64,000 bases of DNA from Candidatus Saccharimonadota bacterium (GTDB lineage: Bacteria; Patescibacteriota; Saccharimonadia; Saccharimonadales; Saccharimonadaceae): assembly GCA_017437945.1 (NCBI GenBank), contig JAFRWP010000007.1, positions 62,001-126,000 on the forward strand. Direction: 5' to 3'. Position 1 is the first letter of the stretch. Every line of letters begins with the position of its first letter. Both the position numbers and the translations under genes were made by a program. Positions 26,304 through 46,160 of this stretch are shown here, piece after piece. The notes below the pieces were generated by a model, which did no database searches, was not told the DNA's origin, and saw only the letters and a list, made by a program, of their open reading frames with translations.

Positions 26304-27068
26304 ATGGCAAAGGTAATTACTGTTACCAATCAAAAAGGAGGTGTAGGCAAGACTACTACGTCTATTAACCTTTCTTTTTATCTTGCTAAAGCTGGCAAGA
26401 AAACCTTACTGATTGATTTTGATCCACAAGGCAACGCTAGCTCTGGCCTTGGCATCGATAAGTCTGATCTTGACCGCACGATGTGTGATGTTATGCTTGG
26501 TGACTGTCTACTCAAAGATATTGTAGTTGCAAATAAGGTTAAGAAGCTTTTCGTTGCGCCAACCATTCCGGAACTCGCTAACGTTGAAGTGCAAATGGCC
26601 GAGATGGAGAACAAATTCCTCATCTTGAAGCGCGCCATCGCACCAGTGCTTGATAGCTATGATTATATTATTATCGATAGCCCGCCAAGCCTCTCGCTTT
26701 TGACCGTTAATGGCATGATCGCCGCAGACTATCTACTGATTCCAGTTCAGACTGAGTTCTATGCGCTAGAGGGCGTGTCTCAGCTACTCAAGAGCATGGA
26801 ATTAGTCCGTAAGGCTATGAATCCTGATCTCGAGCTTCTGGGCGTGTTGGCGACCATGTACGATCGTCGTACCACACTTAGTTCGCAGGTTCTCGCCGAA
26901 GTCAAAAAGTTCTTTAAAGATAAAGTATTCGATACTACGATTCCGCGCAACGTCCGCCTCGCTGAGGCGCCAAGCCACGGTGTCGCCATTGGGCAATATG
27001 ATCGCTTCAGTAAGGGTGCAAAAGCGTATAAATCCCTCGCGGAAGAAGTCATGGAGCGTACCAAATGA
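26304..27068 (+). CDS. parA: chromosome partitioning ATPase ParA/Soj
   Basis: ParA binds DNA non-specifically in its ATP form and moves ParB-marked origins apart. The 254-residue protein has the deviant Walker A KGGVGKTT at 11-18, the Walker A' DFDPQGNAS and the IIDSPPSLSLL Walker B region. Length and order match chromosomal Soj. It overlaps parB by four bases (ATGA). No full parS site was seen in the window. Confidence 0.95.
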   Translation: MAKVITVTNQKGGVGKTTTSINLSFYLAKAGKKTLLIDFDPQGNASSGLGIDKSDLDRTMCDVMLGDCLLKDIVVANKVKKLFVAPTIPELANVEVQMAEMENKFLILKRAIAPVLDSYDYIIIDSPPSLSLLTVNGMIAADYLLIPVQTEFYALEGVSQLLKSMELVRKAMNPDLELLGVLATMYDRRTTLSSQVLAEVKKFFKDKVFDTTIPRNVRLAEAPSHGVAIGQYDRFSKGAKAYKSLAEEVMERTK

Positions 27069-27949
27069 GCGCCATCAAGCATGGATTAGGCAGAGGATTT
27101 GAGGCACTTATTCCAACCGACACCGTAGATTCAATTTTTGATCCAACTGCCGGTGAAGATAAGAAAGAAAGCAAACTGCGCGACATTAAGATTGATGATA
27201 TTTTCCCAGACGAAGACCAGCCGCGTCGCGATTTCAAGCAAGAGCAGCTCGACGCCCTTGCGGACTCAATCCGTGAACATGGCGTTTTGCAACCGATTGT
27301 CGTTACGAAAGAAGGTGATAAATACAAGATTGTCGCCGGCGAGCGTCGTTGGCGTGCCTCTAAAATTGCCGGGCTCGAGAAAATCCCAGCCATTGTCCGC
27401 ACCCTTGATGCCCAGAAGCGCCTAGAAATCTCCCTAATTGAAAACGTTCAGCGCGAAGATTTGAACGCAATTGAAACCGCCACGGCTTACGCCAAGCTCA
27501 AGACTCAGTTCAACCTGAGCTCCGCCGAGGTTGCTAAGCGTGTTGGCAAGAGCGAACCAGCCGTAATTAACACTATGCGCCTTTTGACGCTTCCGGACGA
27601 AGCCAAGCACGCTATGGTCGAGCATAAATTATCCGAAGGCCAGATGCGTCCGCTAATTACTGCCACGCCAGAGCAAATCGCAGCTGTTTTGCCACGCATT
27701 ATTGACGAAAATTGGAGCGCTCGCAAAGTCGAGCAGTATATGGTTGAGCTCAAGGCTCGCGAAAAAGCCAAGAAAGGCGCTCAGCCGCGTCCAGAAACCG
27801 CCAGCGGTGAAGCTCGCGCTAAGAATATCAGCGAGCATTTAGGAGTGAAAGTTAAAGTTCACACGAGCGTACGCGGCTCGGGTGATATCGTGTTAAAATT
27901 TAAGAACGAAAAGGAGTTTGAGAGACTATGTTCAATTCTAACGGCGTAA
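27065..27949 (+). CDS. parB: chromosome partitioning protein ParB
   Basis: ParB loads on parS and spreads as a CTP-dependent clamp. The 294-residue protein has the opening GLGRGFEALIP, the CTP-binding box GERRWRASK from residue 92, ENVQREDLN and a helix-turn-helix near 150-180 (SSAEVAKRVGKSEPAVINTMRLL). The C-terminal dimer domain ends in FKNEKEFERLCSIL. It overlaps frr by 22 bases in another frame, an unusual link between partitioning and ribosome recycling genes. Confidence 0.94.
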   Translation: MSAIKHGLGRGFEALIPTDTVDSIFDPTAGEDKKESKLRDIKIDDIFPDEDQPRRDFKQEQLDALADSIREHGVLQPIVVTKEGDKYKIVAGERRWRASKIAGLEKIPAIVRTLDAQKRLEISLIENVQREDLNAIETATAYAKLKTQFNLSSAEVAKRVGKSEPAVINTMRLLTLPDEAKHAMVEHKLSEGQMRPLITATPEQIAAVLPRIIDENWSARKVEQYMVELKAREKAKKGAQPRPETASGEARAKNISEHLGVKVKVHTSVRGSGDIVLKFKNEKEFERLCSILTA

Positions 27950-42466: not shown

Positions 42467-42493
42467 GGCATTTTGATAATTTTATATCATGCC
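42467..42493 (-). promoter_or_regulatory. hairpin in the adhesin leader
   Basis: GGCAT-GATA ... TATC-ATGCC can fold in the 5' untranslated region, or act as a second operator; it contains a TATAAA-like box. Confidence 0.35.
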
Positions 42494-42560
42494 AAGGGAA
42501 AAATTTGCAATCATAAGCAGAAAGTTATATAGCAGTTGCGGTTATGCTTAAAAATGTGTT

Positions 42561-42574
42561 CAATTATATAATTG
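42561..42574. promoter_or_regulatory. palindrome CAATTATATAATTG
   Basis: A perfect 14-base palindrome 15 bases downstream of the operator pair, in the adhesin leader. It includes TATAAT and could be another protein site or a second promoter. Confidence 0.35.
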
Positions 42575-42588
42575 GCGAATAGCTAGAC

Positions 42589-42605
42589 GTTGTAAAAAAT
42601 ACAAC
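42589..42605. promoter_or_regulatory. operator 1 of the adhesin promoter
   Basis: GTTGTA-AAAAA-TACAAC inverted repeat; with the flanking C and G it extends to 19 bases. Confidence 0.6.
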
Positions 42606-42607
42606 GA

Positions 42608-42613
42608 ATTATA
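42608..42613 (-). promoter_or_regulatory. -10 box of the adhesin gene, between two operators
   Basis: TATAAT on the minus strand, lying between the palindromes at 42589 and 42624. It implies a leader of about 180 bases before the GTG at 42424. Confidence 0.5.
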
Positions 42614-42623
42614 TGCTAGTAAC

Positions 42624-42640
42624 GTTGTAATAATTACAAC
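42624..42640. promoter_or_regulatory. operator 2 of the adhesin promoter
   Basis: GTTGTAATAATTACAAC is a perfect palindrome around one central base. Its centre is 35 bases from that of operator 1, about 3.3 helix turns. Confidence 0.6.
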
Positions 42641-42645
42641 AAAGT

Positions 42646-42678
42646 ACAAAAACCGGCCCCTTTGCAGAAACCGGTTCA
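42646..42678 (-). terminator. terminator of the redox operon
   Basis: AACCGG/CCGGTT hairpin with T-run on the minus strand, just after trxB. Confidence 0.6.
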
Positions 42679-43584: not shown

Positions 43585-43896
43585 TTATTTCCCCAGCATC
43601 TTTAGAAGACGCTTCTTGGACTGTAGGCCAGTCTTGCGGTCAACTTCTTCGCCACCATCAAATACGATCAGGCATGGAATCGAGCTGACATTGTATTGCT
43701 CGGCTAGTTCGCTTTCCTCATCGATATCTACTGCGACAATCTTAAAATCGCCACCTTCATCGGCAATCTCTTCCAAAATTGGATGAAGCGCCTGGCATGG
43801 TGGACACCACGTTGCATTAAAATCCACCAATACTGGCAATTCCGACTCGAGGACTTCTTTCTGAAAGTTCTCGCTAGTACCATTAATGATTATCAT
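43585..43896 (-). CDS. trxA: thioredoxin
   Basis: A 103-residue thioredoxin with the active site WCPPC at 30-34 (the usual form is WCGPC), cis-Pro in SSIPCL near 73, and the GxxxK end. A Cys follows the cis-Pro, which is not standard. WCPPC occurs in thioredoxins of several CPR and anaerobic bacteria and shifts the redox potential. It overlaps ohrR by 14 bases. TrxA could reduce the peroxidase coded by the first gene of the operon. Confidence 0.93.
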   Translation of the reverse strand: MIIINGTSENFQKEVLESELPVLVDFNATWCPPCQALHPILEEIADEGGDFKIVAVDIDEESELAEQYNVSSIPCLIVFDGGEEVDRKTGLQSKKRLLKMLGK

Positions 43897-44335
43897 GTTT
43901 GCCTCCTTCTAAGTTTAATAATACTTTATAAAGCAATTTATATAAAATCTCAGCTTCTTCCGGGGTTAAGTTAATACATGTGCGCATTAATTCAGGAATT
44001 TTAGTAGCTTCAGTACGGAGCGCATAACCGCGTTCGGTTAACGCAATAATCATTTCGCGTCCATCATTTGGCGACTTCTGACGTTCGATATAGCCCTTGG
44101 CTTCTAGTTTTTGGAGAAGTGGCGTCAGGGTATTCGTATCCAACAACAAAGCCTTGCCCATATCGCTAATATTACTGTGCTGCTGCTCCCATAAATACAT
44201 CATCACGATGTATTGGGTGTAAGTTAGATCGAGTGGCTTCAGAAATGGGGTATAACGGCCGATAATCTCTTTTGAGCAGAGATAGAGCGGAAAACAAAGC
44301 TGATTGCTTAGTCTCAGCGACTCGTAAACTTCCAT
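43883..44335 (-). CDS. ohrR: OhrR/MarR-family peroxide-sensing repressor
   Basis: OhrR represses peroxide-defence genes until its N-terminal Cys is oxidised by organic hydroperoxides. The 150-residue protein has the sensor region SNQLCFPLYLCSKEI with Cys14 in the right place, a Tyr-rich LTYTQYIVMMYLWE segment, and the winged helix (LLLDTNTLTPLLQKLEAKGYIERQKSPNDGRE). Its ATG overlaps the gpx stop (TAATG). A palindrome at the operon start is the obvious autoregulatory target. Confidence 0.88.
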   Translation of the reverse strand: MEVYESLRLSNQLCFPLYLCSKEIIGRYTPFLKPLDLTYTQYIVMMYLWEQQHSNISDMGKALLLDTNTLTPLLQKLEAKGYIERQKSPNDGREMIIALTERGYALRTEATKIPELMRTCINLTPEEAEILYKLLYKVLLNLEGGKHDNH

Positions 44336-44896: not shown

Positions 44897-44910
44897 TATC
44901 GCATGCGATA
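44897..44910. promoter_or_regulatory. palindromic operator of the redox operon
   Basis: TATCGCATGCGATA, a perfect 14-base palindrome. It starts eight bases downstream of the -10 box on the minus strand, so it covers the transcription start. Confidence 0.7.
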
Positions 44911-44917
44911 CATTTTT

Positions 44918-44923
44918 AGTATA
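44918..44923 (-). promoter_or_regulatory. -10 box of the redox operon
   Basis: TATACT on the minus strand, about 40 bases ahead of the gpx ATG. Confidence 0.6.
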
Positions 44924-44975
44924 GCACAAATTATTATTCGTAAAGAGCATATTTTACAAAACTCAACAGATGTGC

Positions 44976-44981
44976 TAAAAT
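44976..44981 (+). promoter_or_regulatory. -10 box of rpmG
   Basis: TAAAAT nine bases before the ATG at 44991; no ribosome site. Confidence 0.5.
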
Positions 44982-44990
44982 AATGCCAAT

Positions 44991-45200
44991 ATGGCAAAGA
45001 AAAATAATACCAAGCGCAAGCTTGTTGGTTTGGTTTCTGAGGAATCCGGTATCCGTCTTTACTATACGAAGAAGAATACTATGAATACTCCAGACAAGCT
45101 CAGTCTTCGCAAGTATGACCCAGTTTTGCGCAAACATGTGGTCTTCACCGAAACGAAGAAGAATCTTGGTCGCAACGAAGTTAAAGAAAAGAAGCGCTAA
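44991..45200 (+). CDS. rpmG: ribosomal protein bL33
   Basis: A 69-residue large-subunit protein, longer than the usual 49-55. [48 protein letters not shown] follows the L33 pattern, with the zinc-binding Cys replaced (the Cys-free form). A basic tail of about 12 residues is added. It is expressed alone with a nearly leaderless start and a strong terminator. Confidence 0.93.
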
Positions 45201-45203
45201 ATA

Positions 45204-45237
45204 ATATGCCCCATCTCGAGAGGGGCATATTTTTATT
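45204..45237 (+). terminator. terminator after rpmG
   Basis: ATGCCCC/GGGGCAT stem with TATTTTTATT. Confidence 0.85.
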
Positions 45238-45290
45238 GGCGAAAAAATATTGCCGAACCGAACTAAAAAGCTTATACTAAATGTAAGATT

Positions 45291-46160
45291 ATGCAGCCGA
45301 ACTATCCGAATAACCCGTATTCGAATGCCGGTGTGCCTAACTATGGTGGGCAGCCTTATCCGTACCCTCAGCAGATGCCGCCACAGATGACACAGCAGGG
45401 TGTTCAGATGTCGCCTAATATACAGGCGGCTCCTGTTGCCGCTCCGAATTTGCAGCAAATGAATGCTGGATCGGCCATTCCGCCAGTTATGCCAAATGAG
45501 ACGGCCGTCACGGCGCATAAGAAAACAACTTTAGCTGATGGCACAGTCCTACCGGATGTGATTTACGTAAAAAAGAAGGGCACATTGTTTGCACTCATAG
45601 CTACTGTAATCCTGTTAATCGGTTGCGCAGGTTACGCTATCTATGCCACGTTGCAAAATAATAGCGCTCAGTCGAAAGTCGAAGAGCTTACGACTAAGAC
45701 TGAAAGGCAAGAAGGCCTTCTAAAGACCACACTCGAGAGTCTAGGTTTTGCTTCTGAAGACGAATTAACGAAAGAAAACATCCAGAAATTAATCTTGTCT
45801 CCAGAGGGTGCCATGGATATAGATATGACATCATTTAGTGATGGCACTGGCGTGGGCGTAAAATCAATCAGAATCGCTTCAAATGTCCGTTATGTTTTGG
45901 CTGACGTAAATTACTACGGCACCAGCTCCTATTATTATAGGAATGTCGAAATGGGCGGCTGGAACTTTGCCTTTAGCCGCAACGGTCTCGTGAGATGCCG
46001 CGAGATTACCGCCGAAGCAATGAAAGTCATTACTGATTTAGGCGGCGTAGATAAGTCTGTGACTGAAGACGGTAAACCATACGATTGTATTGATACGCAA
46101 GACGATAATAAACTCTACGATTTCCCAGATGCTCTCAACGCTGGCGTTTATCAAAAATAG
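45291..46160 (+). CDS. membrane protein with Pro/Gln-rich cytoplasmic head
   Basis: A 289-residue protein. The first 75 residues are rich in Pro, Gln, Asn and Tyr (YPNNPYSNAGVPNYGGQPYPYP) and disordered. A helix at about 98-119 spans the membrane, a coiled-coil stretch (SKVEELTTKTERQEGLL) follows, then an outer domain of about 130 residues with Tyr clusters and two Cys. Not recognised. TATACT is 12 bases ahead of the ATG. Confidence 0.6.
   Translation: MQPNYPNNPYSNAGVPNYGGQPYPYPQQMPPQMTQQGVQMSPNIQAAPVAAPNLQQMNAGSAIPPVMPNETAVTAHKKTTLADGTVLPDVIYVKKKGTLFALIATVILLIGCAGYAIYATLQNNSAQSKVEELTTKTERQEGLLKTTLESLGFASEDELTKENIQKLILSPEGAMDIDMTSFSDGTGVGVKSIRIASNVRYVLADVNYYGTSSYYYRNVEMGGWNFAFSRNGLVRCREITAEAMKVITDLGGVDKSVTEDGKPYDCIDTQDDNKLYDFPDALNAGVYQK

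Follow-up and report, generated by a model that had tools for sequence, protein, structure and literature searches.

The palindrome YGTTGTA-W5-TACAACR is probably an operator, recognised by a single homodimeric DNA-binding protein throughout this genus of Saccharibacteria; we put the probability of this reading at roughly 0.6. Its strict sequence, its strict 5-bp spacer, its conservation across the genus, its fixed distance to promoters, and DNA-level selection on its copies within genes are established, and the core GTTGTA-N5-TACAAC is a real and conserved putative DNA-binding site of the regulatory type. The site is not specific to the adhesin, as it is also present at the promoter of a non-coding RNA and within many genes.

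Sequence and distribution of the palindrome

A genome-wide search for the motif, proposed as a check in the preliminary description of this locus, returned 12 exact copies of GTTGTA-N5-TACAAC in the 952,266 bases of this genome (G000), as compared to 0.04 expected from hexamer counts (P ~1e-26). When all 6-N-6 palindromes with spacers of 0-20 were counted over 893 kb of the genome (the rest adds no copy of this motif), GTTGTA at spacer 5 was the most over-represented; the genome contains no copy of the GTTGTA/TACAAC palindrome at any other spacer in this range. Six permuted half-sites and a reversed control pattern gave 0 exact copies each, and copies with two mismatches were not enriched; the absence of the permuted half-sites, together with the lack of enrichment in the two-mismatch class, indicates strict specificity. 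Three close pairs were found among the 12 sites, as compared to 0.018 expected.

Across the genus, 36 of 37 genomes carry 2-19 copies, while one member (G020, 99% complete) carries none; among 24 genomes of other families, a single copy was found, in one genome. All genomes compared are drafts or MAGs, and the named related sequences come from Saccharibacteria MAGs, several of which have an animal-gut origin. A literature search on the motif or a known regulator of it produced no match. GTTGTA-N5-TACAAC is also present in Paenibacillus (L250, L218, L238, L261, and other loci), with 98 copies in one 8.2-Mb genome; these copies form arrays spaced 51-52 bp, often with longer complementary flanks, and a regulatory role is not evident for them.

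The consensus YGTTGTA-W5-TACAACR was derived from 83 collected sites. A pyrimidine precedes GTTGTA in 164 of the 166 half-sites, in a search that had required GTTGTA alone, and the 5-bp spacer is mostly A/T with a variable centre. The flanking bases of the two sides vary independently, and the Saccharibacteria copies, which have variable spacers, show no conserved sequence beyond one flanking base. The pyrimidine preference, the A/T spacer, and the independence of the two sides fit two half-sites of a DNA-bound dimer, not a hairpin. An RNA hairpin was rejected because copies with one mismatch show no preference for G-U wobble pairs and the flanks vary independently on each side, both of which favour a DNA site. 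A phage origin was also rejected; paired copies in viral contigs resemble tandem repeats within coding sequence.

Paired sites at adhesin and structured-RNA promoters

In the window (the whole 64-kb stretch of DNA analysed here), the only exact copies of GTTGTA-N5-TACAAC are GTTGTAAAAAATACAAC and GTTGTAATAATTACAAC, 35 bp apart from centre to centre, as the preliminary description had reported; the pair sits between the terminator of a GPx-MarR-Trx-TrxB operon and the gene for a 2123-residue adhesin (Table 1). The TATAAT that was said to lie exactly between the two palindromes is indeed present on the minus strand, but ~4 bp off the midpoint, and the third palindrome that was said to follow them is present as CAATTATATAATTG, a sequence different from that of the pair. 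Among the aligned relatives, both of these elements are confined to this genome.

Table 1. Features of the window around the paired palindromes (TSS, transcription start site).
Feature	Position	Strand	Remarks
Surface adhesin, 2123 aa	36053..42424	-	VWA domain, ten FctA/Spy0128-like isopeptide domains, C-terminal membrane anchor
Inferred -10 TATAAA	42481..42486	-	18-bp spacer; predicted TSS near 42474; leader ~50 nt
Inferred -35 TTGCAA	42505..42510	-	Conserved adhesin promoter
GCTTATG block	42512..42518	-	Just 5' of -35; common to several site-bearing promoters
Conserved block TTTTTAAGCATAACCG	42539..42554	-	Between sites and promoter; common to relatives' adhesin promoters
Third palindrome CAATTATATAATTG	42561..42574	.	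Sequence differs from the pair; not conserved in relatives
Proximal palindromic site GTTGTAAAAAATACAAC	42589..42605	.	Centred ~-124 from inferred TSS
TATAAT between palindromes	42608..42613	-	Promoter of the preliminary description; not conserved in relatives
Distal palindromic site GTTGTAATAATTACAAC	42624..42640	.	Centred ~-159 from inferred TSS
Intrinsic terminator of upstream thioredoxin operon	42650..42677	-	Paired sites begin just past terminator
MarR-family OhrR-like regulator	43883..44335	-	In GPx-MarR-Trx-TrxB operon; rejected as binder

Upstream regions of six adhesin-type genes were aligned (this window, L184 from MAG UBA3723, L216, G006, G036, and G030, the last being a different VWA/GBS104-like pilin). 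The site is kept in the five other genomes, and conservation upstream of related adhesins, which had been named beforehand as a test, is thus borne out. Downstream of the sites, the six genes share a core that reads TTTTTAAGC..., then GCTTATG, then a -35 element TTGCAA/T; the -10 element is TATTTT or TATAAA in five of the six promoters. Of 18 intergenic sites, 8 have GCTTATG no more than 220 bp away, as compared to 0 of 65 intragenic sites and a background of 4.7%. An inverted pair, AAGC(A/G)TAA ... TTATG(C/A)TT, is located between the sites and the promoter in the window (42511-42554, minus strand) and at the equivalent positions in the adhesin promoters of relatives; a second regulator may bind to it. 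The palindrome pair lies between trxB and the adhesin gene in at least one further genome (L184), in the same order as in the window. The trxB gene was rejected as the regulated gene, since none of the 29 other trxB loci examined has a site 3' of the gene.

Transcription start sites were inferred from sequence conservation, and all distances to them rest on these predicted starts. Measured in this way, every one of the 14 promoters compared (six adhesin-type and eight structured-RNA) has a site whose centre falls between -118 and -125. Five of the six adhesin promoters have a second site, at -151 to -167, and six of the eight RNA promoters have theirs at -64 to -66; no site overlapping or downstream of the promoter was found in any of the 14. 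With the conserved promoter ~90 bp downstream and the window's sites at ~-124 and ~-159, there are simpler readings than a clamp that obstructs RNA polymerase. The proposals that the palindromes enclose the adhesin promoter, and that a repressor acts on it from both sides, are not supported by this arrangement, and the leader, put at about 180 bases, shortens to that listed in Table 1 if the promoter conserved among relatives is used.

In locus L018 and its relatives, a pair of sites lies upstream of a promoter (TTGACT, 17 bp, TATATT) oriented towards a conserved ~300-nt region (L018:5640-5960, minus strand; homologues in L132, L123, L104, L165, L169, and L228). This region is predicted to form a structured RNA, with compensatory changes in 22 of 63 predicted pairs across seven genomes; a comparison with Rfam gave no convincing family match. 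The RNA is located between tmRNA/comM and a VirD4-like operon, upstream of the genes for a small membrane protein and a VirD4/TraG-like ATPase. A possible small RNA divergent from the structured RNA (L018:6320-6440, plus strand) has its own TTGACA/TATGAT promoter and a terminator; a third site, with one mismatch here and exact in G006, adjoins this promoter.

Copies within genes

The motif copies are dispersed over contigs, many of them within housekeeping genes, and a first classification placed about three quarters of the 83 sites within open reading frames, a few of which are spurious frames over intergenic sites (genes were called with a simple ORF scorer). Nearly all intragenic copies are in the phase that reads Val-Val-x-x-Thr-Thr. 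In this genome, 6 of the 16 peptides of this type are coded by the exact palindrome, as compared to 0.05 expected (P ~1e-11), which argues that the intragenic copies are not a protein effect. In a phosphoketolase-like gene, the exact 17-mer is kept in 20 of 30 orthologues, through synonymous positions, with a codon identity at the 17-mer of 0.6-0.9, as compared to a mean of 0.47 for the gene. In xseA, the Val-Val-Lys-Ile-Thr-Thr block is either present, nearly always with 0 or 1 mismatch to the motif, or wholly replaced, and in G020, which lacks the motif, the equivalent intragenic positions have drifted. Judged from these codon comparisons, the codons at intragenic copies are held by selection at the DNA level. 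Strict putative operators that are kept in housekeeping genes at the expense of codon choice need an explanation; single intragenic copies may act as roadblocks to transcription, as decoys, or as architectural anchors. Because most copies are intragenic and one pair sits between converging genes, the site may do more than control transcription.

Sites were also found within a SipW-like signal peptidase gene (L016:3401-4549, minus strand; L129, L138, and L158), at different codons in each genome and as a pair in L158. This gene, named from NCBIfam, adjoins a gene for a TasA/CalY-type secreted protein, so named from a reading of sequence resemblance.

Binding protein, mechanism, and known systems

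No candidate binding protein (MarR/OhrR, XRE-MurA, the priA/recJ winged-helix protein, a Zur-like protein, or ParB) fits the motif. The adjoining MarR/OhrR-like gene, which would be the regulator that the preliminary description had suggested looking for beside the motif, is present in just 2 of 41 genus genomes, as compared to the motif in 36 of 37, and no motif copy within two mismatches was found near its own promoter (44900-45300). The XRE-MurA protein (L032:4138-5679; G000 contig C10:29037) is a MurA that carries an XRE helix-turn-helix domain fused at its N-terminus, with weak sites upstream of its gene in part of the genus; this candidate was discarded since protein and recognition helix alike are found order-wide and do not follow the motif, with a fusion-type match in 47 of the 48 genera of the order searched and the recognition helix TSQSAxNRxE in those read. 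A different palindrome, ATATCA-N4-TGATAT, ~30 bp upstream of the XRE-MurA gene in 6 of 19 relatives, is possibly the operator of XRE-MurA itself. The small winged-helix protein encoded between priA and recJ has a one-mismatch site upstream in this genome, but is also order-wide. The gene for the Zur-like protein has TGAAAATCATTTTCA upstream instead, and the motif has a variable A/T centre. In 28 genomes, neither the sequence nor the recognition helix of ParB follows the presence of the motif. A canonical parS (TGTTTCACGTGAAACA-like, 16 bp) was not found within two mismatches in G000, which nevertheless carries a ParB gene in the window (27065-27949, plus strand); TATTTCACGTGAAATA or a close variant, a parS-like palindrome with one copy in several genus members, is perhaps the parS of those members. 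A scan of part of the genome for HTH proteins gave a short list and no further testable candidate.

If the site is an operator, two dimers would occupy the pair in front of the adhesin promoter (~-124 and ~-159) and, likewise, the pair upstream of the structured-RNA promoter (~-65 and ~-123), and would act from upstream on RNA polymerase or other promoter-proximal factors without covering the promoter. Activation of the adhesin and the RNA together is favoured over repression, as -65 is the position of a class I activator. The adhesin sites, however, lie further upstream than a classical activator site, which speaks against activation, and this distance would call for DNA bending, or else for an extra factor that binds the AAGC and GCTTATG blocks. 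Repression by looping, in which paired dimers, alone or together with the AAGC..TAA and GCTTATG blocks, would keep the adhesin promoter closed until host contact, is rather unlikely; the sites are paired, conserved blocks do lie between them and the promoter, and some pair spacings are near whole helical turns (32, 42, 63, 64, and 126 bp), but spacings of 35, 57, and 59 bp do not fit the helical repeat, the intervening TATAAT is not kept in relatives, and no site overlaps or follows the promoter in any of the 14.

We consider it unlikely that the motif is primarily a chromosome-organising site (SlmA-, Noc-, or MatP-like), with the promoter copies in secondary use. Such a role would match a strict palindrome that is present in 12-19 copies per genome, dispersed over contigs and often in housekeeping genes, and that is conserved there as DNA; against it stand a copy number that ranges from 0 to 19 within one genus, the pairs and fixed promoter distances, and the parS and ParB results given above. 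A REP-like element, a short palindrome that moves or copies itself into and between genes, is highly improbable. Near-identical copies in unrelated genes and the tandem arrays with extended stems in Paenibacillus would suit it, yet in Saccharibacteria only one flanking base is conserved and spacers vary, synonymous sites are kept in place across genus orthologues, and distances to promoters are fixed. Even less probable is a peroxide switch operated by the neighbouring OhrR-like MarR protein. Its gene does lie in the operon just upstream, and MarR proteins bind palindromes of similar size, but its rarity in a genus that nearly always has the motif, together with the absence of sites at the other trxB loci, effectively refutes it as a general binder; it could bind in this one species.

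We advance a wider proposal tentatively: a genus-specific epibiont regulator with one strict 17-bp operator may coordinate the adhesin, other surface-protein genes, and a structured RNA of ~300 nt, which would be previously undescribed, beside type IV secretion genes, and may thereby switch cells between the free and host-attached states, with the copies in housekeeping genes extending its control. A review describes the switch from swarmer to host-attached cell in Patescibacteria as completely unknown and, for one Saccharibacteria species, names both adhesin-like proteins and a type IV secretion system as essential (PMC11665869). With its defined sequence as a DNA probe, its fixed geometry, and a named set of promoters, the site offers a means of capturing the regulator and testing the switch.

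Compared with known systems, the motif differs from REP-like elements, which are units with conserved flanks at variable places, in having one conserved flanking base and being conserved in place. It resembles the sites of SlmA, Noc, and MatP in being a strict palindrome with copies tens of kilobases apart, often intragenic, but differs in its pairing at a fixed distance from promoters and in its 0 to 19 copies within the genus. Its half-site YGTTGTA matches parS TGTTTCA at five of seven bases, and many copies are intragenic, as with parS; however, the spacing differs by 3 bp, and the recognition helix of ParB does not track the motif. The copy at 42624 can be read as TTGTAAT-A-ATTACAA, a 7-1-7 box of the Fur family (Zur, PerR), whereas the centre is free A/T in most copies, and the genome's Fur-type gene, beside znu-like transporter genes, has another box upstream (TGAAAAT-C-ATTTTCA). 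MexR-type operators of the MarR family share the geometry of half-sites with a 5-bp gap (the MexR operator is GTTGA-N5-TCAAC), but the sole MarR protein examined is not conserved alongside the motif. The CRP site, TGTGA-N6-TCACA, differs in sequence, and relative to class I activation at CRP-type promoters, the RNA promoter adds a second site at ~-123 and the adhesin sites lie only at -118 or further; what is shared with class I activators is a palindromic dimer site upstream of the -35 element at a fixed position, -64 to -66 in six of the eight RNA promoters and -118 to -125 in all 14.
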